A stretch of 12,218 bases of DNA from an uncultured bacterium (GTDB taxonomy: Bacteria > Patescibacteriota > Saccharimonadia > Saccharimonadales > Saccharimonadaceae). The notes below the pieces were generated by a model. The model searched no databases and had not been told where the DNA came from. It saw only the letters and a list, made by a program, of their open reading frames with translations. The stretch covers positions 1-12,218 of the forward strand of contig CALMQN010000101.1 in NCBI GenBank assembly GCA_937872185.1, in the 5' to 3' direction. The position numbers and the translations under genes are program-made. Position 1 is the first letter of the stretch. Every line of letters begins with the position of its first letter. Of this stretch, positions 1-12,218 are shown piece by piece.

Positions 1-1533
1 CGATAATCGGATACGGTTGAAACAGTTTGATAGTTTGCAAAAAGCAACGATGATCGTTCGATGAACCAAAAAGTTCGCGTTAATCGTGGTGACGCAGTCA
101 AGGCTGGCACTACTTTGATCGAAGGTGCATCAATCGCTGACGGCGAATTGGCGCTGGGTGCTGATTTGACTGTGGCCTTTATGCCATGGGGCGGTTATAA
201 CATGGACGACGCTATCGTCCTGTCACAGCGTGTTGTCCAAGACGACACACTGACCAGCATCAACATCAAAGATTACACGGTTGAAGTGCGTGAAACCAAA
301 CTGGGTCCAGAAATCGTCACTCGCGATATTCCAAATGTGAGCGAAGAGTCACTCCGTCACTTGGACGAGAGCGGTATCGTGCAACTGGGTTCAGAGGTTA
401 AATCTGGTGACGTATTAGTCGGTAAGATTACACCAAAGGGTGAACAAGAACTATCAAGCGAAGAACGATTGCTGCGTGCAATCTTTGGTGAAAAAGCCAA
501 GGATGTTCGTGATACCTCACAGCGCATGAACAATGCTGGTGGTGGTAAAGTCGTTGGCGTTAAGATCTTTAGCCGTGAAAATGGTCACGAATTGAAAGCA
601 GGCGTTCTTATGCAGATCCAGATCTTTGTTGCACAACTGCGCAAGATTTCGGTCGGTGACAAGTTAGCTGGACGACACGGTAACAAGGGTGTTGTTGCGC
701 GAATCTTGCCAATCGAAGACATGCCATTTATGGAAGATGGTACGGCGGTTGACGTGGTATTGAACCCACTGGGCGTGCCATCACGTATGAACATTGGACA
801 GCTGTTTGAAACCCACTTGGGCATGGCTGCTCGTGCACTAGGATACAAAGTTGCAAGCCCACCGTTTAACGGTGTACCAAACGACACGATTAGTGATGAA
901 CTTGAAAAAGCTGGCTTTGCCCGCGACGGTAAGTTCCAATTATTCGATGGTCGTGACGGTAGCGCATTTGAAGAGCGCACAACTGTTGGTGTGATGCACA
1001 TGATTAAGCTACACCACATGGTAAGCGACAAGATTCACGCCCGTTCAACTGGTCCATACACGATGGTGACCCAACAGCCACTTGGTGGTAAGGCTCAAAA
1101 CGGTGGACAGCGATTCGGTGAAATGGAAGTCTGGGCACTTGAAGCATACGGCGCAGCCGCAACACTTCAGGAAATGATTACGATCAAATCCGACGATGTA
1201 TACGGACGTGCAAAGGCATATGAGTCAATCATCAAGGACGAACCAATTGTTGGTCCAAAATTACCAGAATCATTTAACGTGTTGGTCAAGGAGCTGCAAG
1301 GTTTGGGACTGCGTGTTGATTTGCTGGACGAGTCTGAGGATGCCATCATCGACGCTGAACAAGTGATCGGTGCGGTTATCAACGGCGAGCCAGTTGCAGC
1401 TATCCCAGCACTTGGTGATGATGACGATAGCGAAGAAACTATTCTGGATGAAGCAGATGACTTTGGTGATCTGGGCGATGGAGTAACGATTCAGGATATT
1501 GATGAAGTAGAAGAAATCAAGGAGGAGGCGTAA
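1..1533 (+). CDS. rpoB: RNA polymerase beta subunit, C-terminal part (5' truncated by window; frame break near 39-43)
   Basis: This is the C-terminal part of the catalytic beta subunit of RNA polymerase. From base 61 there are 490 open codons with clear beta signatures: FMPWGGYN then DD (residues 40-50 counted from base 61), GDILVG-like [35 protein letters not shown] (the active-site lysine segment), [20 protein letters not shown] and [19 protein letters not shown] near the C terminus. It ends in an acidic tail. The ATG at 61 is internal, because homology to the conserved SN..x..NQ segment continues upstream. In the frame of 61 there are stops at 28-30 and 31-33, while the frame starting at base 2 is open to 61. 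A one-base change in the A5 run at 39-43 would join them. The rifampicin region lies upstream of the window. The stop is one base from rpoC, so the two are co-transcribed and probably translationally coupled. The fragment has no cysteine. Identity is certain; the frame break may be a sequencing error. Confidence 0.95.
1519..1525 (+). promoter_or_regulatory. Shine-Dalgarno site of rpoC
   Basis: AAGGAGG lies inside the last codons of rpoB, nine bases before the rpoC ATG at 1535. It fixes the rpoC start and shows that SD-led initiation is used for core genes here. Confidence 0.85.
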
Positions 1534-1534
1534 T

Positions 1535-4500
1535 ATGTCACGGATTCTAGCAAACAACGGTATTGCCGACTTTGACGCAGTACGCCTAGCAGTCGCGAGT
1601 CCCGAGGACATTCTGAAATGGAGCCACGGTGAAGTCACGAAACCAGAGACAATTAACTATCGTACGCAAAAACCAGAGCGCGATGGTTTGTTCTGTGAAC
1701 GAATTTTCGGTCCAGTCAAAGACATCAACCCACACGATAACAAGTTAAAGGGTGTTCGCTCACGCGAAGCTGCGATCGACAAGAACGGTGACTTGGTTAC
1801 TAAATCTATCGTTCGCCGCGAACGCATGGCACACATTACGCTAGCGGCCCCTGTTGCCCACATCTGGTTTATGCGCGGTACACCATCAGCAATGAGCTTG
1901 CTGCTTGGCATTACCGTTCGTAACCTGGAACGCATCGCTTACTTTGCAACCTACGTTATCCTAAAATCAGACGACACCAAGCGCGACCAGTACTTGGCCG
2001 ACCTGGAAGCCGAAACTGAAGCGGGACGTGCTGCGATTAAGATTCGTTACGAACGTGAAGCTGGTACCGGTGAAGCAGAACCTGACCCATCGATTGACGT
2101 AAAGGCACTTGCTGAACAAATGTCACGCGAAGTTGAAGAATTGAACGAAAACTACACCATCAAAAAAGCTCAACTGGAGAGCCTTGTAAAGGGTGCTTTG
2201 ATTAATGAAGTCGATTTCCGTGCACTTCCTGAAGAGTACGAAGACTTGGTTGAAGTTGGTATGGGTGGAACAGCGCTGAAGGCACTGCTTGATGAGATCA
2301 AGTTGCCAGAGCTGATTGCTCAGCTTACTGAAGAAGTTGCTGGTGCCAAGGGACAACGCGAGAAGAAATTGCAGAAGCGCCTGAAGGTGCTTGAAGGTAT
2401 GGCAGCTGCTGGTATTAAGCCAAGTAGCCTGACATTGACCGTTCTTCCAGTGATTCCTCCGGATCTTCGCCCAATGGTACAGCTGACTGGTGGCCGCTTT
2501 GCGACATCAGACTTAAACGACCTGTATCGTCGTGTGATCAACCGTAACAACCGTTTGAAGAAACTGATCGACCTGAACGCGCCTGAAGTGATCCGTCGTA
2601 ACGAAATGCGCATGCTGCAAGAAGCAGTTGACGCATTGATCGACAACTCGGCAGCACGTGGTGGTCGCGCAGTGAACGCAACCGGTGGACGTCGCCGTCT
2701 GAAATCTATTTCAGACATGTTGAAGGGTAAGCAGGGACGCTTCCGTCAGAACTTGTTGGGTAAGCGTGTTGATTATTCTGGACGTTCTGTGATCGTTGTT
2801 GGTCCAAAACTAAAGATTAACCAATGTGGTCTGCCAAAGCAGATGGCGTTAGAGCTGTTTAAGCCGTTTGTTATTAGCTGGTTGATTCGCGGTGAACATG
2901 CACACAACATCCGCTCTGCAACTCGTTTGATCGAAGCTGGTGATGCACTCGTATGGGACGCACTTGATGCCGTTATCGAAGGCAAGTATGTACTGCTAAA
3001 CCGTGCACCATCACTGCACCGTTTGTCTATCCAGGCGTTCCAACCAAAATTGGTTGAAGGTAAAGCGATCCACTTGCATCCATTGGTTGCAAACGGATTT
3101 AACGCCGACTACGACGGTGACCAGATGGCTGTTCACTTGCCACTTTCAAAGGAAGCGCAAAAGGAAGCTCGCGAGCTGATGAGCGCAACCAATAACTTGC
3201 TGAAGCCTGCTGATGGTGCACCAGTGCTGAACATCGGGCAAGACGTTGTGCTGGGTAACTACTACCTGACATACGTTAAGCCAAGTGCGCAGACTGACGA
3301 GATCAAAGCATACAGCTCGGTATTTGAAGCTGAAATGGCATATGACCAAAAGCACTTGCAGCTACAAAGCCCAATCCGTGTCTTTGCCAAGGGCAAGATT
3401 CGCGAAACAACACTAGGCCGTGTCTTCTTTAACGAGATTCTGCCTGAAGATTTCCCATACGATAACAATGTCCAAAGCAAGAAACAACTAAAAAAGGTAT
3501 TGGCCAAGATCTTTACCGATTATGACGCTGAAACAACTGCTCAGACTGCTGACCGCATGAAGGGCCTGGCCTTCCGATTTGCGACAATTGCCGCTGTGTC
3601 GACTGGTAAAGATGACTACTTGCACTTTGACGAGATCGCAGAATTCGTTGCCGAAGGTGACGCCAAGACGGCATTGATCTCTGAACAGTTTGACCAAGGG
3701 TTGATCACTGAAGAGGAGCGTTATGGCCTGACCGTCGCCTCATGGCGTGCAGTTGACCGCAACGTGACCGAGTTTTTGCAGGGTGAGCTGAAGAACATGG
3801 ACACCAGCATTAGTGTGATGGTGAACAGTGGTGCGCGTGGTGATATTTCGAACGTGAAGCTGGCATCTGCAATGGTGGGAATCATGGTGGACGCAGCAAA
3901 CCGCGAAATCGAACTGCCAATCCGCAGTAACTATAAAGATGGTTTGAGCTCACTTGAGCAGTTTGTGGCTACTCGTGGTGCACGTAAGGGTCTGATCGAC
4001 ACCGCGCTGAAGACTGCCGACTCGGGATATCTGACACGCCGTTTGGTTGATGTGTCACAAGATGTGTTTACAGTTGAAGACGAATCAGGTGATGACGAAG
4101 GCTTTGCGATTGCCAGGAGTGAATCAGAACTGACCATGATCGACTTTGGTAACCGTTTGTTCGGTCGCTACACCGCAGAAGCAGTTCCTGGCCACATTAA
4201 GGCCGACGAGCTGATTACGCGTGAAATCGCCGATGCAATCGAAAACGACAGCGAAGTAACAAGCGTAAAGATTCAGTCAGTACTGTCAACCAAGAACCTT
4301 CGTGGTATTCCACGCAAGAGTTACGGTATTGACATGGCATCAGGCAAATTGATCGCTGGTGCACAGCCTGTTGGTGTCATCGCAGCACAGTCTGTTGGTG
4401 AGCCTGGTACGCAGCTGACACTAAAGACCTTCCACGCCGGTGGTGTGGCAGGTGGGGACATTACACAAGGTTTGCCACGTGTTGAAGAGTTGTTTGAAGC

Positions 4501-5395
4501 TCGTTCACCAAAGGGTCAGGCATTTGTCACTGAAGTCACCGGACTGGTTGATGTATGGGAAGACGGCAAGAAATATGTCGTTCAGGTAACCCCAGAAGCT
4601 GGTCACGTTGAACGCTTGGAACTGGAAGGTCGTACCGCCACTGTTAAATCTGGCAGCAATGTCAAGGTTGGTGACGTACTGGCATCTGGCGAAAGCGAAT
4701 CAAAGCCACTAGTTGCACCATTTGATGGACTAGTTGAAGTCACCAAAAAGATGATCATTATCGCAGCGAACGCAAGTTCACCTGTGAAATATGAGATTCC
4801 TGGTAGCACGCAATTGGTTGTTGCCGCTGGTGACGTTGTCGAAGCGGGTGACCGTTTGACAATCGGTTCACTGAACCTGCACGACCTGATGCGCCTGAAG
4901 GGTACTGAAGCAACACAACGTTACATCATTAACGAAGTGCTTCGTATCTATGCTGCACAGGGTCAAGACGTTGCTGACAAGCACCTTGAGATCATCGTCC
5001 GCCAAATGTTTAGCCGTGTTCAGGTCGAAGACCCAGGCGACGGTACATTTGTAACGGGTGATATCGTTTCAAAGGCAGCTGTCGTTGAAGCAAACGCGGT
5101 ACTTGCACCAGAAAAGAAAGAGCTTGTCGGATACACCCAGTTGCTGCTTGGTATTACCAAGGTGTCAATCTGGTCTGACAGCTTCTTGTCGGCTGCATCG
5201 TTCCAGGACACAACTCGTGTACTGATCAACGCTGCGGTATCTGGTCGCGTTGACCGCCTACATGGACTGAAGGAAAATGTGATCATTGGTCGCAAGATCC
5301 CAGTCGGTACCGGTGCCCGTCGTGCTGACGGCACGCTCGAAATTGACGACGAACTCGCTGACGAGATCGCCGAAGATATCGAACTCGCCGCATAG
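1535..5395 (+). CDS. rpoC: RNA polymerase beta' subunit, lacking both zinc-binding cysteine sets
   Basis: Beta' forms the other half of the RNA polymerase active centre in the cytoplasm. The 1286-residue length suits a family member without the large trigger-loop insertion found in E. coli. Visible landmarks are RDGLFCERIFGPVKD (49-63), VRRERM (93-98), LKGKQGRFRQNLLGKRVDYSGRS, the catalytic loop NADYDGDQMAVH with the three metal-binding aspartates D525, D527 and D529, the trigger-loop start TFHAGG with H967, GLPRVEELFEAR, and LKENVIIG near the end. Two things are odd. The catalytic loop has Tyr526 where Phe is near-universal. All four cysteines of the N-terminal zinc site align to P66, D68, I81 and N84, and those of the second site to S851, T919, P926 and S929. 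Only C54 and C431 remain. A charged segment at about 150-290 resembles the equivalent region of actinobacterial beta'. The gene follows rpoB by one base and ends before a hairpin terminator. Confidence 0.98.
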   Translation: MSRILANNGIADFDAVRLAVASPEDILKWSHGEVTKPETINYRTQKPERDGLFCERIFGPVKDINPHDNKLKGVRSREAAIDKNGDLVTKSIVRRERMAHITLAAPVAHIWFMRGTPSAMSLLLGITVRNLERIAYFATYVILKSDDTKRDQYLADLEAETEAGRAAIKIRYEREAGTGEAEPDPSIDVKALAEQMSREVEELNENYTIKKAQLESLVKGALINEVDFRALPEEYEDLVEVGMGGTALKALLDEIKLPELIAQLTEEVAGAKGQREKKLQKRLKVLEGMAAAGIKPSSLTLTVLPVIPPDLRPMVQLTGGRFATSDLNDLYRRVINRNNRLKKLIDLNAPEVIRRNEMRMLQEAVDALIDNSAARGGRAVNATGGRRRLKSISDMLKGKQGRFRQNLLGKRVDYSGRSVIVVGPKLKINQCGLPKQMALELFKPFVISWLIRGEHAHNIRSATRLIEAGDALVWDALDAVIEGKYVLLNRAPSLHRLSIQAFQPKLVEGKAIHLHPLVANGFNADYDGDQMAVHLPLSKEAQKEARELMSATNNLLKPADGAPVLNIGQDVVLGNYYLTYVKPSAQTDEIKAYSSVFEAEMAYDQKHLQLQSPIRVFAKGKIRETTLGRVFFNEILPEDFPYDNNVQSKKQLKKVLAKIFTDYDAETTAQTADRMKGLAFRFATIAAVSTGKDDYLHFDEIAEFVAEGDAKTALISEQFDQGLITEEERYGLTVASWRAVDRNVTEFLQGELKNMDTSISVMVNSGARGDISNVKLASAMVGIMVDAANREIELPIRSNYKDGLSSLEQFVATRGARKGLIDTALKTADSGYLTRRLVDVSQDVFTVEDESGDDEGFAIARSESELTMIDFGNRLFGRYTAEAVPGHIKADELITREIADAIENDSEVTSVKIQSVLSTKNLRGIPRKSYGIDMASGKLIAGAQPVGVIAAQSVGEPGTQLTLKTFHAGGVAGGDITQGLPRVEELFEARSPKGQAFVTEVTGLVDVWEDGKKYVVQVTPEAGHVERLELEGRTATVKSGSNVKVGDVLASGESESKPLVAPFDGLVEVTKKMIIIAANASSPVKYEIPGSTQLVVAAGDVVEAGDRLTIGSLNLHDLMRLKGTEATQRYIINEVLRIYAAQGQDVADKHLEIIVRQMFSRVQVEDPGDGTFVTGDIVSKAAVVEANAVLAPEKKELVGYTQLLLGITKVSIWSDSFLSAASFQDTTRVLINAAVSGRVDRLHGLKENVIIGRKIPVGTGARRADGTLEIDDELADEIAEDIELAA

Positions 5396-5409
5396 ACGAA
5401 ATACGGACA

Positions 5410-5446
5410 AGAAAGAGGCATCAGACACGATGTCTCTTTCTATTTG
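5410..5446 (+). terminator. Intrinsic terminator after rpoBC
   Basis: A 13-bp stem pairs 5410-5422 with 5429-5441 (one G-U pair) around a 6-base loop at 5423-5428. It starts 15 bases after the rpoC stop. The T-run is weak (TTTCTATTTG), so termination may be partial, but position and stem strength support the end of the rpoBC transcript. Confidence 0.75.
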
Positions 5447-5470
5447 TGGACGCATATATGACGCTCAAGC

Positions 5471-5499
5471 TTGTACGAATAGAGATGGAAAGGTACATT
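5471..5499 (+). promoter_or_regulatory. Promoter of the 217-aa unknown gene, leaderless geometry
   Basis: TTGTAC (5471-5476) and TACATT (5494-5499) are 17 bases apart. The ATG at 5507 lies seven bases after the -10 box, where transcription would be expected to start. No Shine-Dalgarno site precedes it, so a leaderless mRNA is inferred. Confidence 0.5.
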
Positions 5500-5506
5500 A
5501 TATCTA

Positions 5507-6160
5507 ATGGATGCAGGCAATGTAATGAAATTCGCCGAACCAACTGTTCGGCCAGAGAACGTAGAGATCGACGCGGACGAACGGCGAGCAGTTTATGTTC
5601 AGTTTGATCGACTTTGTAAGATGCTTGAGCTAAGAGCAACGAGTTTTAATAGTCACGCCAACAAGTGGCCGTATCAAGAAGGTTACGCCGAGGTCTTTGG
5701 CGCCTATTATCAGCAGGACATGCCCGATGGATCGTATCTATGGATAGATTATTCGACAGGTACCCAGGACGAAAAAGATAAGCAAGCGGTAATAACCGTA
5801 GAAGAACATGCACCTGACGCAACATTGTTGAAGAGTTACAAGTTTATCGTGAAAAACGAGACGGTTTACTATGATGGGGGCCAAATGGGCGATGCGGAAA
5901 ATCGAATCAAAGAGCATTCGAGTACCTATGGCCTAATTGCCATTCTGACGCTTACAGAGTATAACGCAAAGCATGGCCGGGGAAGCGAGCGAGCGAGCGC
6001 TCAATCTGGCCTAGCTATGTTTGATAATGACGCAAGCAATGAGTATCTGAAACATAGACTTGGCTATGGCTATCGCCCGATGAAACTCGACGAAATCCAA
6101 AAGCTGAGGGATGTGCTTCGTCAGGCTGTGCCTGCGCCAGTTAAAGACATTTTTGCTTGA
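5507..6160 (+). CDS. Hypothetical protein (217 aa), soluble, unrecognised
   Basis: I do not recognise this protein. It has 217 residues, no signal peptide and no membrane segment, so it is probably cytoplasmic. The middle (about 60-130) alternates hydrophobic and charged residues as in beta strands, for example SYLWIDYSTG, QAVITVEEHA and SYKFIVKNETVYYDGG. The flanking parts look helical, for example RRAVYVQFDRLCKMLEL near the start and LDEIQKLRDVLRQAV near the end. The single cysteine is in RLCKML. Its position between rpoC and rpsL is unusual, as these are adjacent in most bacteria. The start at 5507 is chosen because a -10 box sits seven bases upstream; a second in-frame ATG lies at 5525. 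A perfect four-fold AGCG repeat at 5984-5999 is inside the gene. It has its own promoter and is probably monocistronic. Real gene: likely. Function: unknown. Confidence 0.8.
   Translation: MDAGNVMKFAEPTVRPENVEIDADERRAVYVQFDRLCKMLELRATSFNSHANKWPYQEGYAEVFGAYYQQDMPDGSYLWIDYSTGTQDEKDKQAVITVEEHAPDATLLKSYKFIVKNETVYYDGGQMGDAENRIKEHSSTYGLIAILTLTEYNAKHGRGSERASAQSGLAMFDNDASNEYLKHRLGYGYRPMKLDEIQKLRDVLRQAVPAPVKDIFA
5984..5999 (+). repeat. (AGCG)x4 tetranucleotide repeat inside the unknown gene
   Basis: Four perfect AGCG units lie in tandem. The unit length is not a multiple of three, so loss or gain of one unit would shift the reading frame of the 217-aa gene. The tract is short and may be chance. Confidence 0.6.
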
Positions 6161-6194
6161 GCAACAGGCAGGATCTAAGCGTCTCTGTGGGACA

Positions 6195-6223
6195 TTGTCA
6201 TTTCTGCGTGGATCTGTTAGAAT
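6195..6223 (+). promoter_or_regulatory. Strong promoter-like site in the rpoC-rpsL gap
   Basis: TTGTCA (6195-6200, five of six consensus) and TAGAAT (6218-6223, five of six) are 17 bases apart, and TGT directly before the -10 gives an extended -10. The start would be near 6230. No convincing gene follows: only 8- and 12-codon frames begin at 6229 and 6225. It may give rpsL a roughly 200-nt leader or make a small RNA. Confidence 0.55.
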
Positions 6224-6229
6224 TATGAA

Positions 6230-6430
6230 TGAGTTTCCTCTTACGAAGCGTGTGAGTTATTGAATGTGTACGAATTCACGCGATGACAGTAAGTATGACA
6301 CAGGGCGGATATGCTGAATCCAATCTGTAAAATATAGTCAAAGAATGTTGAAGATGCCTGAAATTAACGTTTCATTCATGGATTGCAACAGTCTGATTAT
6401 TAAATTGTAATAATAAAATTTGGAGTATTA
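6230..6430 (+). other. Gene-free stretch before rpsL: possible structured leader or small RNA
   Basis: No coding region is supported in the 270 bases between 6160 and 6431. Two hairpins can be drawn. In one, GCGTG (6248-6252) pairs with CACGC (6277-6281), with a further AGTT/AATT helix inside. In the other, ACAGG (6300-6304) pairs with TCTGT (6324-6328) around GGAT/ATCC (6307-6310 with 6318-6321). Neither is followed by a T-run, so they are not terminators. No known RNA family is recognised. Confidence 0.3.
6383..6411 (+). promoter_or_regulatory. Promoter of rpsL-rpsG-fusA
   Basis: TTGCAA (6383-6388) and TGTAAT (6406-6411) are 17 bases apart in an AT-rich stretch. Transcription would start near 6418, giving a leader of about 12 bases that just contains the GGAG (6422-6425) five bases before the rpsL ATG. 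Confidence 0.6.
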
Positions 6431-6844
6431 ATGCCAACAATCAATCAATTAGTGCGAAAACCACGCAAGACTGCTGCCACAAAAAGCAAGTCACCTGCGC
6501 TTGGTCGTTCATACAACGCACTAAAAACCCGCTATAGCGATCAACCTGGCCCACTTAAACGTGGTGTCTGTATTAAAGTAACGACAAAAACACCAAAGAA
6601 ACCTAACTCGGCACTGCGCAAGGTTGCACGTGTTCGCTTGACCAACGGTCAAGAAGTTTGGGCATACATTGGTGGCGAAGGTCACAACCTACAGGAACAC
6701 GCCGTTGTGCTGGTTCGTGGTGGTCGTGTGCCAGATCTTCCAGGTGTTCGTTATCACATCGTCCGTGGTGCCTTGGATCTTCAAGGTGTTGCAAAACGCA
6801 AACAGGGCCGTAGCAAATACGGTGCTAAGAAGGAGGATAAGTAG
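6431..6844 (+). CDS. rpsL: 30S ribosomal protein S12, long form, with Pro at the streptomycin-linked Lys position
   Basis: S12 sits at the decoding centre of the 30S subunit and controls translational accuracy. The 137-residue protein carries [11 protein letters not shown] (K56 corresponds to E. coli K43 counting Met), [24 protein letters not shown] and RKQGRSKYG. It has the roughly 13-residue insertion near residues 25-42 also found in Bacillus-type S12. At residue 101, in GGRVPDLPG, it has Pro where E. coli has Lys88, a position at which changes cause streptomycin resistance. The next residue, D102, the aspartate methylthiolated by RimO in E. coli, is kept. GGAG lies five bases before the ATG. 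It is the first gene of the rpsL-rpsG-fusA operon, and its 3' end contains the ribosome binding site for rpsG. Confidence 0.98.
6830..6836 (+). promoter_or_regulatory. Shine-Dalgarno site of rpsG
   Basis: AAGGAGG lies in the last codons of rpsL, ten bases before the rpsG ATG at 6847. The rpsL stop at 6842-6844 is two bases before that ATG, which favours coupled translation. Confidence 0.8.
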
Positions 6845-6846
6845 TC

Positions 6847-7326
6847 ATGCCTCGTAAAGTAACCGCAAGTTTACAACGCAAACTGAACCCTGACCGCAAG
6901 TACCAAAGCGTTATGGTGCAGCGTCTTATCAACAAGTCTATGCTTGATGGCAAAAAACTTGTTGCTGAACGTGCCGTTTACACTGCACTCGAAACTGCCG
7001 CTAAAAAACTAAACAGCGAAGACCCGCTTGAAGTATTTGAACGTGCGCTGAAAAACGTGTCACCAAACTTCGAAGTGAAGTCTCGTCGTGTTGGTGGGGC
7101 AAACTATCAAATCCCGTTCCCAGTTGAAGGCCACCGTCGTTTGCACTATGCATTCACTTGGTTGGTTCAATCAGCACGGGCACGTAAGGGCATCCCTTAC
7201 TCACAACGCCTTGCGCTTGAAATCATCGATGCGTACAACGAAGCAGGTGCTGCATTCAAGAAGAAGGAAGACACTCACAAGATGGCTGAAGCTAACCGAG
7301 CCTTTGCTCACTTTGCAAGGGGTTAG
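6847..7326 (+). CDS. rpsG: 30S ribosomal protein S7
   Basis: S7 nucleates folding of the 3' major domain of 16S rRNA and lines the tRNA exit side of the small subunit. The 159-residue length is typical. Diagnostic segments are the N-terminal [21 protein letters not shown] (about 33-49), the rRNA-binding [14 protein letters not shown] [16 protein letters not shown] (about 76-91), and the C-terminal [26 protein letters not shown] tail. It contains no cysteine. It starts two bases after rpsL and ends two bases before fusA, so the three genes form one operon. In E. coli S7 represses this operon by binding the rpsL-rpsG gap; here that gap is only two bases, so that form of control has no room. Confidence 0.98.
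7317..7322 (+). promoter_or_regulatory. Shine-Dalgarno-like site of fusA
   Basis: AAGGGG ends six bases before the fusA ATG at 7329 and overlaps the last codons of rpsG. It is a weaker match than the sites of rpoC and rpsG; coupling to rpsG may compensate. Confidence 0.55.
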
Positions 7327-7328
7327 TT

Positions 7329-9425
7329 ATGGCTGAACGAACTGTTGCTTTAAAAGATTTGCGTAACATTGGGATTATCGCGCACATTGACGCCGGTAAA
7401 ACCACCACAACCGAAGGTATTTTGTACCGTACAGGTATCAACCACAAAATCGGTGAAGTTCGTGGCGCCAATGGCGACAGCGCAACGACCGACTGGATGG
7501 CACAAGAGAAAGAACGTGGGATCACGATCACATCAGCTGCTGTGACGTGTTTTTGGCGCGATCACAAAATCAACATCATCGACACACCTGGTCACATCGA
7601 CTTTACTGCTGAAGTAGAGCGATCACTGCGTGTTTTGGACGGTGCTGTAACGATCTTTGACGGTAAGATGGGTGTTGAAGCACAATCTGAAACTGTATGG
7701 CGCCAAGCCAACAAATACGGCGTGCCACGTATCTGTTTTATCAACAAGATCAACCAAACTGGTGGTGATTTTTACAAATCGCTTGATACAATTCACGCTC
7801 GTCTTTCAAAACAAGCGCTACCAGTCCACCTTCCAATTGGTTTCGAAAAAGACATCAATGGTGTTGTTGACCTGGTCGACATGAAAGCTTACACATACAC
7901 GGATTACGCAGACCACGAATTGGTTCAGGGTGAGATCCCTGCAGACATGCTTGAAAAAGCAAAGCATGCACGAAGCCTGTTGGTTGAAGCGGCTGTTGAA
8001 GCCGACGACGAACTGTTCGAACGATTCCTTGATAAGGGTGAAGATTCAATTACTATCCCAGAGCTAAAGTCAGCACTACGCAAGCGTGTTCTTGCTGGTA
8101 ACTTCTTCCTGGTAAGCGGTGGTGATGGCCGTGGTGTCATCGTTGAAAAACTGCTTGATATCATGGTTGATTATCTGCCATCTCCACTGGATGTGAGCGG
8201 CATTTGGGGCGTCAACCCTAAAAACGGTGATGAAATCGAACGTAAACCAGCTGAAACTGAACCACTTGCCGGATTGGCCTTTAAAATCGCGACCGACCCT
8301 TTTGTCGGTAAGTTGATTTTCGTCCGTGTGTATAGCGGTAAATTGACCGCTGGATCATACGTTCTTAACACCACAACTGGTGAAAAAGAGCGTGTTGGCC
8401 GTATCGTTCGTATGCACGCTGACAAGCGCGAAGAGATCGATTCAGTCAGCGCCGGTGATATTGCGGCTGTTATTGGCCTAAAAGACACCTTTACTGGTCA
8501 TACACTTGCTGATCCTGCGCATCCAATTGCGCTTGAAAGCATTACCTTCCCAGACCCACCTGTGTCGATTGCTGTTGAGCCAAAGACAAAGGCCGACCAA
8601 GAAAAAATGGGCGTTGCTTTGCAACGTTTGGCTGAAGAAGACCCAACATTCCGTGTTCACACCGACGAAGAGACTGGCCAGACGATTATGTCGGGAATGG
8701 GTGAATTGCACCTGGATATCCTGATTGACCGTATGAAGCGCGAGTTTAACGTCGAAGCAAACATTGGTGAGCCTCAAGTTGCCTTCCGCGAATCGATCAA
8801 GGGTACTTCAAAAGTCCAAGGTAAGCATGCCAAGCAATCTGGTGGACGTGGTCAATACGGTGACGTATGGATCGAGTTCGAGCCAAATGAAGTTGGTAAA
8901 GGATTTGAGTTCTTTGACGCAGTTAAGGGCGGTGTTGTTCCAAAAGAATACATCAAACCTGTTGAACAAGGTGTAAAAGAAACGCTTCTTGGCGGTGTGA
9001 TCGCTGGTTACCCTGTTGTTGACGTCAAGGCGACGCTATACGACGGTAGCTACCACGATGTGGACTCAAGCGAACTGGCCTTTAAGTTAGCGGGTGCACT
9101 TGCAACACGCGAAGGCATCAAGCAAGCGAAGCCAATTTTGCTTGAACCGGTCATGCGCGTTGAAGCAACGACTCCTGAAGAGTTCATGGGTGACGTCATT
9201 GGCGACCTTAACGCTCGCCGTGGCCGCATTGAATCTATGGAAGACCTAAACGGTGGCGCCAAGTTGATTAAGGCCATCGTGCCACTATCAACGATGTTTG
9301 GATACACCAACGACCTACGCTCAATGAGCCAAGGCCGCGCCGCAAGTTCGATGGAATTGGCACAGTACGAAGAAGTACCACCAAACGTTGCGCAAGAGAT
9401 CATCGAAAAACGATCAAGCAAATAG
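7329..9425 (+). CDS. fusA: Elongation factor G with divergent guanine-specificity motif (NKIN)
   Basis: EF-G is the cytoplasmic GTPase that drives tRNA-mRNA translocation and helps recycle ribosomes. The 698-residue length and all five domains fit the family. The GTPase domain has G1 AHIDAGKT (18-25), G2 RGIT (63-66) and G3 DTPGH (85-89) with the catalytic His89. Domain II follows DYLPSPLDV. Domain IV has [11 protein letters not shown], and the end has [13 protein letters not shown] and FGYTNDLRS. Two GTP-base contacts are unusual: G4 reads N139-K140-I141-N142 where EF-G normally has NKMD, and G5 reads S263-G264-G265-D266 where SA followed by Phe, Leu or Lys is usual. In EF-Tu, Asp to Asn at this G4 position is known to shift specificity from GTP to XTP. 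The rest of the protein is well conserved, so it is presumably functional. It is the last gene of the rpsL operon, two bases after rpsG and before a strong terminator. Confidence 0.98.
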
Positions 9426-9443
9426 GTAAGAACTGTACCTGCC

Positions 9444-9472
9444 AAAACCTCCGCAACCATGCGGAGGTTTTT
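9444..9472 (+). terminator. Intrinsic terminator after fusA
   Basis: An 11-bp stem pairs 9444-9454 with 9461-9471 around loop AACCAT (9455-9460), with a GC-rich core (CCTCCGC/GCGGAGG) and a T5 run at 9468-9472. It lies 18 bases after the fusA stop. The A-run on the 5' side could let it act on the other strand as well. Confidence 0.93.
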
Positions 9473-9480
9473 GGTTGTGC

Positions 9481-9508
9481 TTGCAATGTACGTAAAGCGT
9501 TATAGAAT
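9481..9508 (+). promoter_or_regulatory. Promoter of the 224-aa unknown gene
   Basis: TTGCAA (9481-9486) and TAGAAT (9503-9508) are 16 bases apart, just after the fusA terminator. The ATG at 9520 is 11 bases past the -10, leaving a leader of only about four or five bases and no Shine-Dalgarno site. Confidence 0.55.
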
Positions 9509-9519
9509 AGCAAAATAGT

Positions 9520-10194
9520 ATGCCAGCAAAAGAAGATTTTCCTGAACGTGAACCCATTGGTGAAATGTCGACAGTTCGTCGGTATTACGCTGATATTTCA
9601 ATGCCAAATCTTGATAAAGCAGGTGCGATGTTCGCGGTTGACAATTTTTTCGTTGGTACAGGTATCGTTGATGATGACGATAGTCTTGAAATGGTTCATC
9701 GGGAAGTTGTGCGCATTATGTCAATGTATCCAACTGCCCAAGCTCGTCACGAAAGATTAATGATGCTGCCAGTGCTGACGGTCGCACCGTATGTCGAGCT
9801 GTCACGATCGCCGCAACAAGTCGGCGCCTGGTACAAAGAAGTTATCGAGCGTTTGATCACCAAGGCCGGGCCGACGCATGACCTGACATGTATCGAAGAA
9901 TCAGACCAGTTAGCAAGGGATGAATGTGTTAATAGCGAGGTATGTCCAGTGATTACCACGGCACGCGTGTTGGTTATGCCGATTTACGAACCTGATTTTA
10001 ATGATTTGCCGTATCTTGTTGACCCTCGTCAAGCCTTTTTGGTTGCCAAGGCCAAGCTCGACGTCGCGAAAGTATTTAAATTGGGCGACAGTGGGCTGAT
10101 GAAGTATAACTTTGGACAGTACGTGGAATCTGTTCGCATGTATTTTGGACTTGAGGACACAGCTCGCACAAGTACTGGTGAAGAATCAGAATAG
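9520..10194 (+). CDS. Hypothetical protein (224 aa), soluble, unrecognised
   Basis: I do not recognise this protein. Its 224 residues contain no signal peptide and no membrane segment, so a cytoplasmic location is likely. An acidic run DDDDS occurs at 51-55. Helical-looking stretches include MVHREVVRIMSMY (58-70) and VGAWYKEVIERLITKAG (101-117). Three cysteines at 124, 136 and 142 are clustered, which stands out in a locus that is otherwise almost cysteine-free; they could bind a metal or form a disulfide, but no known motif is seen. A hydrophobic beta-like stretch ARVLVMPIY is at 148-156 and an acidic Ser/Thr-rich tail ends the protein. The start at 9520 fits the promoter; an in-frame ATG at residue 16 is the alternative. 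It separates fusA from tuf, which are commonly adjacent. Confidence 0.8.
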   Translation: MPAKEDFPEREPIGEMSTVRRYYADISMPNLDKAGAMFAVDNFFVGTGIVDDDDSLEMVHREVVRIMSMYPTAQARHERLMMLPVLTVAPYVELSRSPQQVGAWYKEVIERLITKAGPTHDLTCIEESDQLARDECVNSEVCPVITTARVLVMPIYEPDFNDLPYLVDPRQAFLVAKAKLDVAKVFKLGDSGLMKYNFGQYVESVRMYFGLEDTARTSTGEESE

Positions 10195-10232
10195 CCGTGA
10201 CCAGATGGTACTAGGGTAAAAACAATTTGGTG

Positions 10233-10241
10233 TGGTATGAT
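10233..10241 (+). promoter_or_regulatory. Extended -10 promoter of the first membrane gene
   Basis: TGG followed by TATGAT (10236-10241) forms an extended -10 element. No good -35 box is seen. Transcription would begin at about 10248-10249, exactly at the ATG at 10249. The box overlaps the earlier ATG at 10237, so that codon would not be in the mRNA. Confidence 0.6.
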
Positions 10242-10248
10242 AAGGCCT

Positions 10249-10668
10249 ATGCTTACCCGTATGATTTATTTCGGATACATTTCACTTTATGCCAGCTTAA
10301 ACCTTATCGTCGGCATCCAAATTATCGGATCATTTGCCTATAATCCCGTCATAGACGCGCGTCATATTGCCGATTTGATACTTGCGGTGATCGTGCTGTC
10401 AATCAGCGTGCTTTGCTTTGTGGGGTTGTCAAAACGTCACGACAACAAACCCCGAACAGTCAACCTGCGTCGTCATATTGGGCATGCCCTGACGCGCGCG
10501 CTGCTGCCGCTGCTGGTGATAAGTCTTTTTGTCAATCTTTATATCAGCCCATCGGTAAACTTGCTTATTGCGAGTATCCTTTCGGTGTTGGCTGCGGCGA
10601 CAACGTTTTTACTGGTGAGGCACCGACTGCACAGTGCGCCGTTTCAGGCGCCATATCGCAAAAAGTAG
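10249..10668 (+). CDS. Small four-helix membrane protein (139 aa), paralog of the next gene
   Basis: An unrecognised integral membrane protein. From ATG 10249 it has 139 residues and four hydrophobic segments at about 6-30, 41-61, 83-100 and 102-123. The loop at 62-80 is basic and contains KRHDNKPRTVNLRRHIG, which by the positive-inside rule is cytoplasmic and puts both ends inside. The C terminus is also basic. The start at 10249 is preferred over 10237 because the -10 box covers 10237. The TM2-loop-TM3 part aligns without gaps to the following gene (shared RH.N.P....LRR.IG and a following PL.I..L.V.L pattern), so the two look like a diverged tandem duplication. It lacks the large outside loop of its neighbour. 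Each gene has its own extended -10 promoter, so they need not be co-transcribed. No function can be assigned. Confidence 0.75.
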   Translation: MLTRMIYFGYISLYASLNLIVGIQIIGSFAYNPVIDARHIADLILAVIVLSISVLCFVGLSKRHDNKPRTVNLRRHIGHALTRALLPLLVISLFVNLYISPSVNLLIASILSVLAAATTFLLVRHRLHSAPFQAPYRKK

Positions 10669-10687
10669 GTAGCTCCATCACTGCAAT

Positions 10688-10694
10688 GGGGGGG
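10688..10694 (+). repeat. G7 homopolymer upstream of the second membrane gene
   Basis: Seven consecutive G lie about 28-34 bases upstream of the predicted transcription start, in the short gap between the two membrane genes. It is the longest G-run I noticed in the window. Length changes here would alter -35 to -10 spacing. Confidence 0.6.
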
Positions 10695-10706
10695 TTAAGC
10701 GGCTTA

Positions 10707-10715
10707 TGCTATAGT
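10707..10715 (+). promoter_or_regulatory. Extended -10 promoter of the second membrane gene
   Basis: TGC followed by TATAGT (10710-10715) is an extended -10 element. Six bases separate it from the ATG at 10722, so the transcript should begin at or next to the A of the start codon. A run of seven G (10688-10694) covers the region where a -35 box would be. Confidence 0.6.
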
Positions 10716-10721
10716 GATCGT

Positions 10722-11306
10722 ATGAACAAGCTGTACTACGTCATTTTGGTCGTGTTTGGGATTATTGGTGTGTTTAGCGCTGCCCAGGCGGTTATTACGA
10801 TTATCGCACTGCCCATGTACTGGGAGGCGATTGGGATAGCAAACATCATAAGCGGGACGCTTATTGCGATTGGTGGCATCCTTGCGTTGATGTTATTTTT
10901 TGCACGACATAAAAATGATCCCAAGGCTATCCGTTTGCGACGACTGATCGGCAAGGTGCTGGGTTATGCGGTTATTCCGCTGACTATCGTCATGTTGCTG
11001 GTGAGTTTATCGCAGACATCCTTCATTCAGTCTGCATACTGCAACCTTGAGCAGGTGCCGGGGTCGGGTAGTGGAGGGCTGGGCGTGCTTGGATACCAAG
11101 ACGAGCTGAGCGTTGAATATGTATGCAATATCGCTACGTTCGATATATCACGTATTGCGATGTCTGCCGATCATACAGAGGCCGTCCCAATTTCGTATGA
11201 GCTTTTGGCGACATACGGCGGGACAGTTATTGTATTGGTCGCCGTTGCCACGATGGTTTTAGCCCAAACGCGAAATCTTGCAAATACGCCTCAAACAAAA
11301 CGATAA
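10722..11306 (+). CDS. Four-helix membrane protein (194 aa) with a cysteine-bearing outside loop
   Basis: An unrecognised integral membrane protein of 194 residues. Hydrophobic segments lie at about 5-30, 37-60, 78-97 and 160-181. The short loop 61-77 is strongly basic (RHKNDPKAIRLRRLIGK) and so cytoplasmic, as are both ends. This puts the 98-159 segment outside the cell. That loop carries a Gly/Ser run PGSGSGGLG (113-121) and two cysteines, C107 and C135, which could form a disulfide. Residues about 40-97 align with the upstream 139-aa protein: the two TM2 segments are the same length up to the RH pair, and the cytoplasmic motif RH.N.P....LRR.IG is shared. The outside loop is the main difference. 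The start at 10722 is chosen from the extended -10 placement; the frame remains open upstream to an ATG at 10413, but that would overlap the previous gene. No Shine-Dalgarno site is present. Function is unknown; a surface role is only a guess. Confidence 0.78.
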   Translation: MNKLYYVILVVFGIIGVFSAAQAVITIIALPMYWEAIGIANIISGTLIAIGGILALMLFFARHKNDPKAIRLRRLIGKVLGYAVIPLTIVMLLVSLSQTSFIQSAYCNLEQVPGSGSGGLGVLGYQDELSVEYVCNIATFDISRIAMSADHTEAVPISYELLATYGGTVIVLVAVATMVLAQTRNLANTPQTKR

Positions 11307-11312
11307 AAACTC

Positions 11313-11341
11313 TTTACGAACAGTAATAAAGCCTGTATAAT
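11313..11341 (+). promoter_or_regulatory. Promoter of tuf
   Basis: TTTACG (11313-11318) and a perfect TATAAT (11336-11341) are 17 bases apart. The start would fall near 11348-11349, giving a leader of about 59 bases. It is the best -10 match in the window, as expected for one of the most highly expressed genes. Confidence 0.8.
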
Positions 11342-11354
11342 TGGGCTCATACGT

Positions 11355-11377
11355 CGTGAGGTGGTATTATCCTCATG
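11355..11377 (+). promoter_or_regulatory. Hairpin in the tuf leader
   Basis: CGTGAGG (11355-11361) pairs with CCTCATG (11371-11377), seven pairs including one G-U, around a nine-base loop. It lies close to the predicted 5' end of the tuf mRNA, upstream of the AAGGAG. It could stabilise the message or regulate it. The 3' arm contains an ATG that opens a five-codon frame. Confidence 0.45.
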
Positions 11378-11392
11378 CGAAAAATAATTTAA
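11375..11392 (+). CDS. Possible five-codon leader peptide (MRKII) before tuf
   Basis: ATG at 11375 is followed by four sense codons and a TAA at 11390-11392 whose last two bases are the first two of the tuf AAGGAG. Its ATG is in the 3' arm of the leader hairpin. A GAGG at 11358-11361 lies in the 5' arm. The arrangement could couple hairpin opening to tuf translation, but a frame this short may be chance. Confidence 0.15.
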   Translation: MRKII

Positions 11393-11396
11393 GGAG
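11391..11396 (+). promoter_or_regulatory. Shine-Dalgarno site of tuf
   Basis: AAGGAG lies eleven bases before the ATG at 11408 in an otherwise A/T-only stretch, which favours open mRNA and high translation. It supports 11408 as the start. Confidence 0.8.
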
Positions 11397-11407
11397 AATA
11401 AATTAAA

Positions 11408-12218
11408 ATGGCAGATTTCGATCGCACCAAGCCTCACGTTAACGTCGGTACTATGGGTCACGTTGACCACGGTAAAACAACTCTTACCGCAGCAATTACT
11501 GCAACTTTGGCAAAGCGCCTTCCAAGTGCGGTTAACAAAGCTGTTGCATACGACCAAATCGACAACGCCCCTGAAGAGCGTGCACGTGGTATCACCATTG
11601 CATCATCTCACCAGGAATACGAGTCAGAAAACCGTCACTACGCACACGTTGACATGCCAGGACACGCAGACTACGTCAAAAACATGATCACCGGTGCTGC
11701 GCAGATCGACGGCGCAATCTTGGTGGTTGCTGCAAACGATGGTCCACTGCCACAAACCCGTGAGCACGTTTTGCTTGCTAAGCAGGTTGGTGTGCCAAAG
11801 ATCCTTGTTTTTCTAAACAAAATGGACTTGGCTGACCCTGAACTAGTAGAACTGGTTGAAATGGACATTCGTGAACTGCTTGCTAAAAACGGCTTTGACG
11901 AAGACGCTCCTATCATCAAGGGTTCTGCAACAAAAGCACTTGAAGGCGATTCTGCATCTGAAGACGCAATCATGGAATTGGTTGCTGCACTTGATAGCTA
12001 TGTTCCAGAACCAGTACGCGACCTAGACAAGCCATTCCTGATGCCTATCGAAGACGTGTTCTCGATCAAGGGTCGTGGAACAGTTGCAACCGGTCGTATC
12101 GAACAGGGTATCGTTAAATTGAACGACCCAGTTGAAATCGTTGGTATCCACCCATCACAACAAACTGTTGTGACTGGTATCGAAGCTTTCAAAAAGAACC
12201 TTGACCAAGGACAAGCTG
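11408..12218 (+). CDS. tuf: Elongation factor Tu, N-terminal 270 residues (3' truncated by window)
   Basis: EF-Tu is the cytoplasmic GTPase that delivers aminoacyl-tRNA to the ribosomal A site. The visible part covers the G domain and the start of domain 2. It has G1 GHVDHGKT (17-24), RGITI in the switch I/G2 region, G3 D82-M83-P84-G85-H86 with the catalytic His, G4 NKMD (137-140) and G5 GSA near 175, then [13 protein letters not shown] and [11 protein letters not shown] at the start of domain 2. The G3 second residue is Met where Cys is usual (E. coli Cys81), and Cys137 and Cys255 of E. coli are also replaced, so the fragment has no cysteine. Unlike EF-G here, its NKxD is normal. The frame is open to the window end, and the full protein should be about 395 residues. 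It has its own strong promoter and is not co-transcribed with fusA, from which it is separated by three unknown genes. Confidence 0.98.

Follow-up and report, generated by a model that had tools for sequence, protein, structure and literature searches.

Bacterial RNA polymerase typically carries two zinc sites in its β′ subunit (RpoC), and a β′ zinc site was reportedly linked in 1999 to the assembly of the enzyme. In Escherichia coli, the first site (Zn1) is placed at the RNA exit channel, where it serves as the landing and binding site of putRNA, in the excerpt available from PMC9378689. Deletion of the importer ZupT in C. metallidurans disturbs the synthesis of RpoC, which then collects in inclusion bodies, as stated in the available part of PMC12632275. 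In this study, we analyzed a 12,218-nucleotide stretch (hereafter the window; NCBI GenBank assembly GCA_937872185.1, contig CALMQN010000101.1, positions 1 to 12,218) from an uncultured bacterium of the family Saccharimonadaceae (order Saccharimonadales, class Saccharimonadia, phylum Patescibacteriota), which encodes a β′ subunit lacking the cysteine ligands of both sites.

The rpoC gene (1535..5395; this and all features below are on the + strand) is one intact open frame encoding 1286 amino acids. Its product matches the TIGR02386 rpoC profile over the full length (1400.3 bits against a cut-off of 963.5), contains five Rpb1 Pfam domains, and carries the catalytic Mg-binding motif NAD[FY]DGD as NADYDGDQM. 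It thus shares with canonical bacterial β′ (RpoC, TIGR02386) the domain set and the NADYDGD motif, together with the genomic context and, in a predicted model, the fold of the second zinc (Zn2) module, whereas it has 0 of the 8 zinc-ligand cysteines and new conserved residues at both sites. An initial annotation, made from the letters alone, had proposed that all eight ligands are replaced, and an alignment with 209 RpoC loci places the replacements at exactly the residues it named. These loci comprise 89 from the window's order (its own locus included), 20 from other orders of the class, and 100 from other classes of the phylum; they are those fetched, further genomes having matches that were left unread, and 7 of 60, 3 of 147, and 3 of 192 genomes gave no match.

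Within the Cys-free Zn1 region (residues 55-100; 1697..1834), the window reads PxD...IxxN in place of CxC...CxxC, and a Cys4 ligand set is missing. The four positions are P66 (1730..1732; Pro in 86/89 of the order), D68 (1736..1738; Asp in 89/89), I81 (1775..1777; Val or Ile in 88/89), and N84 (1784..1786; Asn in 72/89), the last within a D-K-N-G turn whose G85 is found in 89/89; all four columns are Cys in the 120 loci read outside the order. The claim that the spacing is that of E. coli β′ proved exact; solved β′ chains align with equal spacing over Zn1, the CxC...CxxC set being missing. At Zn2, S851 replaces the first cysteine (segment 842-860; 4058..4114), and T919, P926, and S929 replace the other three (segment 914-934; 4274..4336; fold kept in the predicted model), so that the ligand positions read S, T, P, S instead of a Cys4 set. 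These columns, which we take to be C814, C888, C895, and C898 of E. coli, are Cys in 119, 119, 118, and 119 of the 120 outside loci, respectively. The protein retains two cysteines in total, C54 (1694..1696) and C431 (2825..2827), both of which are non-ligand residues conserved in 89/89 of the order. A fixed-length 123-base DNA pattern describing a Zn1 in which all four cysteines are missing matched the window once (1706-1828) and had 0 matches in each of 200 shuffles. Across 189 loci, it matched 88 of 89 order loci and none of 100 others; the sole order locus that it missed (L102) also has a Cys-free Zn1 when translated.

The initial annotation had suggested mapping the losses by aligning RpoC across Saccharibacteria and other groups, and this alignment, covering the order, other orders of its class, and other classes of the phylum, showed that both sites are gone in all the order loci read. 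None of the four Zn1 cysteines is present in any of the 89 order loci, whereas all four are present in each of the 120 loci outside; the full Zn2 tetrad occurs in 0/89 and 118/120, respectively. Close relatives with all eight cysteines, which the initial annotation had named as contrary to its view, were not seen among the loci read: the nearest relatives with all eight belong to other orders of the class and share at most 57% full-length identity with the window RpoC. At least one cysteine in or near the Zn2 positions is kept by 20 of the 89 order loci, and two are kept by six (L073, L081, L086, L087, L106, and L107); these remnants look like relics of stepwise decay. Judged from the sequences, the absence of both RpoC zinc sites is an order-wide, ancestral trait, which the first observation recognized correctly and understated. 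Scanning a named species collection with the 123-base pattern listed at least 119 stretches whose Zn1 is Cys-free, each encoding Saccharibacteria-type RpoC at least 60% identical to that of the window (best tblastn piece) and all Cys-free at the four positions, as the pattern demanded. Because the pattern leaves out codons beginning with T at these positions and the matches are those listed, the scan is no proof that other bacteria never lost Zn1. Among 80 titles listed, 67 were Saccharibacteria or Saccharimonadales, and 13 were named only as bacterium, Patescibacteria group, Nomurabacteria (L218), or Chaera renei. Seven of the nearest 120 protein records listed had an organism name, namely, five Candidatus Saccharibacteria/Saccharimonadales, one Patescibacteria group bacterium, and one Streptomyces caniscabiei. 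The record labeled S. caniscabiei (P0107) and L218 both encode Saccharibacteria-type RpoC, and their assemblies are probably mislabeled or mixed. No report of a zinc-free RNA polymerase or of zinc-site loss in Saccharibacteria was found among the literature matches listed, which consisted of titles and abstract openings with subscription literature mostly outside.

A maximum-likelihood tree was constructed from 67 of 210 RpoC sequences (the window, 28 of the order, 16 of the class, and 22 of the phylum) after removal of both site regions; two long rows, L098 and L101, are of doubtful placement. The order formed a single clade (SH-aLRT 99), with family f35, which has all eight cysteines, as its sister. 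A single change, placed at the order's base, accounts for the loss of Zn1. The full Zn2 tetrad required two changes, one in the order and one in family f51, and single Zn2 positions required 2 to 7. The f51 loci concerned, L169 (G195) and L349 (G216), are the two Zn2 exceptions outside the order. Like the order, they lost Zn2 cysteines, independently, and L169 converged on a GIPxxAYG loop (GIPQIAYG, compared with GIPRKSYG in the window); unlike the order, Zn1 is kept in 5/5 and Zn2 in 3/5 of the f51 members read.

Further structural zinc proteins were read in 14 author-picked genomes, nine of the order (G000, G009, G013, G035, G028, G101, G050, G040, and G081) and five of other orders of the class. 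The ligand sets of uS14, bL31, bL36, and the DnaG zinc ribbon are gone in the order genomes read, compared with 1 of 17 cases in the class relatives. The uS14 tetrad is missing in 9/9 order genomes and present in 4/4 others, and bL31 is Cys-free in 9/9 and has the tetrad in 5/5 others, the window's own genome being included in both cases. In bL36, the cysteines are replaced (SPDD...N) in all eight order genomes with a match and present in 4/4 others. The DnaG ribbon reads SP(F/W)...DFS in 8/8 order genomes and is of the CPFH...CFGC type in 3/4 others, a second, shorter DnaG match in G063 being left out of the count. By contrast, bL33 and bL32 were rejected as order-specific losses since class relatives lack these tetrads. 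The zinc ribbon of TopA (PF01396) had no match in the 14 genomes, and ZnuA (PF01297) matched in 1/9 order and 1/5 other genomes; neither is informative. The RecR zinc finger (PF02132) matched in 0/9 order genomes compared with 4/5 others, and RecR may be absent or Cys-less in the nine.

The available part of PMC10038286 describes how E. coli under zinc shortage swaps bL31 and bL36 for zinc-free paralogues. As in the YkgM/YkgO proteins of that source, the zinc-ligand cysteines are replaced here and the protein is retained, and the bL31 and bL36 read here are such forms. Unlike that system, there is a single match per genome and no sign of a swap, and the replacement reaches RNA polymerase and primase. 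For bL36, uS14, and bL31, each of the 14 genomes that gave any match gave just one per protein, and the window's own assembly (653,035 bases in 148 contigs, 86% complete) had one rpoC match, that of the window. No pair of zinc and zinc-free paralogues was seen in one genome, in the own assembly for rpoC or in the 14 genomes for bL36, uS14, and bL31. Because bL36 and bL31 were each matched just once in those Saccharibacteria genomes searched that gave a match, the zinc-free state looks constitutive.

Zinc itself is probably still used, although the sampled gene-expression machines no longer carry these ligands, because DnaJ, MutM, MsrB, and UvrA of the order relative G009 exceed their family cut-offs and retain CxxC zinc-type motifs. 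An open reading frame (ORF) of G009 resembling zinc alcohol dehydrogenases, below the cut-offs shown, likewise has zinc-type Cys motifs. A zinc-free cell was rejected on the basis of these proteins. The idea of a zinc-poor way of life, raised in the initial annotation, is only partly borne out: several core machines have lost their zinc ligands, but zinc-type proteins persist. Its companion suggestion of a cysteine-poor life fared worse. In 400 kb samples of G009, whose RpoC is 94% identical to that of the window, and of G061, a class relative with the zinc sites, cysteine made up 0.54% and 0.42%, respectively, of mechanical ORFs of at least 150 amino acids, whereas 47 reciprocal-best pairs gave 0.33% and 0.44%, the latter figures weighing with the contrary points gathered below. 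The two measures point in opposite directions, so that general cysteine avoidance is not clear, and a Cys-poor proteome is not supported as the cause; the conservation of C54 and C431 also speaks against it. Host dependence is insufficient as the sole explanation because 118/120 loci elsewhere in the phylum keep all eight cysteines, although an episymbiotic life is inferred for the phylum, its prevalence being described as poorly known (available part of PMC13059738).

The initial proposal of a zinc-free β′ whose folds are held by other contacts is supported, since by sequence neither zinc site can form and the folds must be held otherwise. The Saccharibacteria RNA polymerase thus very probably lacks structural zinc, and the Zn2 module is predicted to keep its fold without it. 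At Zn1, a D-K-N-G hairpin turn may substitute for the C-D-x-C-G knuckle, together with a new charged set of N65, D68, R77, E78, and D/E86; at Zn2, a G-I/V-P-x-x-S/A-Y-G loop may do so, aided by packing within the enzyme. It is also conceivable that zinc or a different metal is still held at the sites by other residues, such as H67, D68, D82, and E78, the first three of which are common (83, 89, and 88 of the 89 order loci). We regard this as very unlikely. Three of the eight ligand positions are poorly ligating nearly throughout, position 66 being mostly Pro, 81 mostly Val or Ile, and 926 mostly Pro; because the residues at these positions in the 89 order loci are P/I/Q/S, V/I/R, and P/S/G/A/N, respectively, metal binding by the replacing residues is unlikely. 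In addition, H67 is changed to N or Y in 6/89 order loci and in 10 of at least 119 loci of the named collection, and K or R also occurs at position 84.

Overall, we consider it likely that the sole β′ found in this genome, itself very probably zinc-free, lost its ancestral sites, gained replacement contacts, and was shaped by zinc-saving selection on abundant machines. On the sequences, a single Zn1 loss lies at the base of the order, and the same lineage also lost Zn2, with scattered single or paired cysteine relics left; both β′ folds would be kept by the replacement contacts. The common cause may be selection removing zinc from abundant zinc-holding machines, namely, RNA polymerase and the ribosome, while some other zinc proteins were spared. 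An ancestral, fixed zinc-stripping of the gene-expression machinery is the best reading, with zinc economy as a plausible driving force and drift as its main rival. The broader proposition, in which the primase, RNA polymerase, and ribosome of Saccharimonadales lack structural zinc, this state was fixed once in an ancestor as a zinc economy, and zinc is reserved for a few proteins, seems to us as well balanced on one side as on the other. Relaxed selection, in which dispensable zinc sites eroded in a small-genome epibiont with no zinc-saving gain, is a possible but weaker account; it would explain the stepwise Zn2 relics, the independent Zn2 erosion in two of the five f51 genomes read, and the loss of the DnaG ribbon by itself in G060. 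However, no Zn1 cysteine relic remains in 89/89 loci and the replacements are near-invariant (D68 and G85 in 89/89 and E78 in 86/89), a pattern resembling purifying selection for a new solution, and ligands are missing from several unrelated zinc proteins of this lineage when nearly all loci elsewhere in the phylum keep the eight RpoC cysteines. It is improbable that zinc-thiolate sites were removed on the host surface to escape oxidation or zinc poisoning rather than to save zinc. The losses do hit Cys-rich ligand sets while two non-ligand RpoC cysteines are kept, and knocking out rpmJ (bL36) makes E. coli resistant to zinc according to the available part of PMC10038286, but the same source states that zinc binding by ribosomal proteins is unrelated to the resistance observed, and DnaJ, UvrA, and MutM retain their zinc-type motifs in G009. 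An artefact, whether a sequencing or assembly error, a wrong code, or a pseudogene next to a normal copy, is negligible as an explanation in spite of the fragmented assembly, since the frame is intact, the assembly has a single rpoC match, and Cys-free Zn1 recurs in all order loci read and in the stretches of a separate collection.

Several points weigh against zinc-stripping of the whole machinery and against retention of both folds. The structure modeling suggested in the initial annotation was informative for Zn2, where the module fold was kept, and too low in confidence to use for Zn1: the Zn2 model covers a fragment only, with a mean pLDDT of 64.8 and an overall pTM of 0.48, and the Zn1 model (a fold of residues 1-340) has a pLDDT below 50, with means of ten between 27 and 44 over residues 1-110. 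The 14 author-picked genomes, nine of them of the order, are a small set, and one uS14 cysteine is left in 3/9 order genomes. Neither bL36 nor the DnaG ribbon was matched in the window's own, incomplete assembly, so that those two losses rest on relatives. The bL33 tetrad is missing in 8/8 order genomes read but also in 4/5 class relatives, and the bL32 tetrad is missing in three class relatives over the cut-off, the order genomes having no match; these two proteins therefore do not track the order. In G060 (L432), which belongs to the class but not to the order, the DnaG ribbon was lost independently and all eight RpoC cysteines were kept, which indicates that zinc losses are separable. Finally, Cys-free bL31 and bL36 are known elsewhere, so that they count for less as evidence of zinc economy.

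The rpoC gene lies in the order rpoB-rpoC-(unnamed ORF)-rpsL-rpsG-fusA, that is, between rpoB (61..1533; C-terminal part, cut by the window start) and the genes for ribosomal protein S12 (rpsL, 6431..6844), ribosomal protein S7 (rpsG, 6847..7326), and elongation factor G (fusA, 7329..9425). No Pfam match was found for the window ORFs at 5507-6160 in the rpoC/rpsL gap or at 9520-10194, 10237-10668, and 10413-11306 past fusA. Elsewhere, the rpoC of L243 (OX335598.1) apparently carries a frameshift somewhere after the Zn1 region and before the catalytic motif, and in-frame TAG codons were reported within the rpoC matches of two order relatives, one in L018 (G011) and two in G045.

A large natural lineage without both β′ zinc sites is a ready-made test of the role of zinc in this enzyme and, if the reading is true, would provide a natural bacterial RNA polymerase whose assembly does not require zinc. 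From the parallel losses in primase and ribosomal proteins, a cell seems able to dispense with zinc in much of its gene-expression path, and how little zinc a cell can live on thereby becomes a testable question. These results suggest that gene expression in the lineage may involve unusually little structural zinc.

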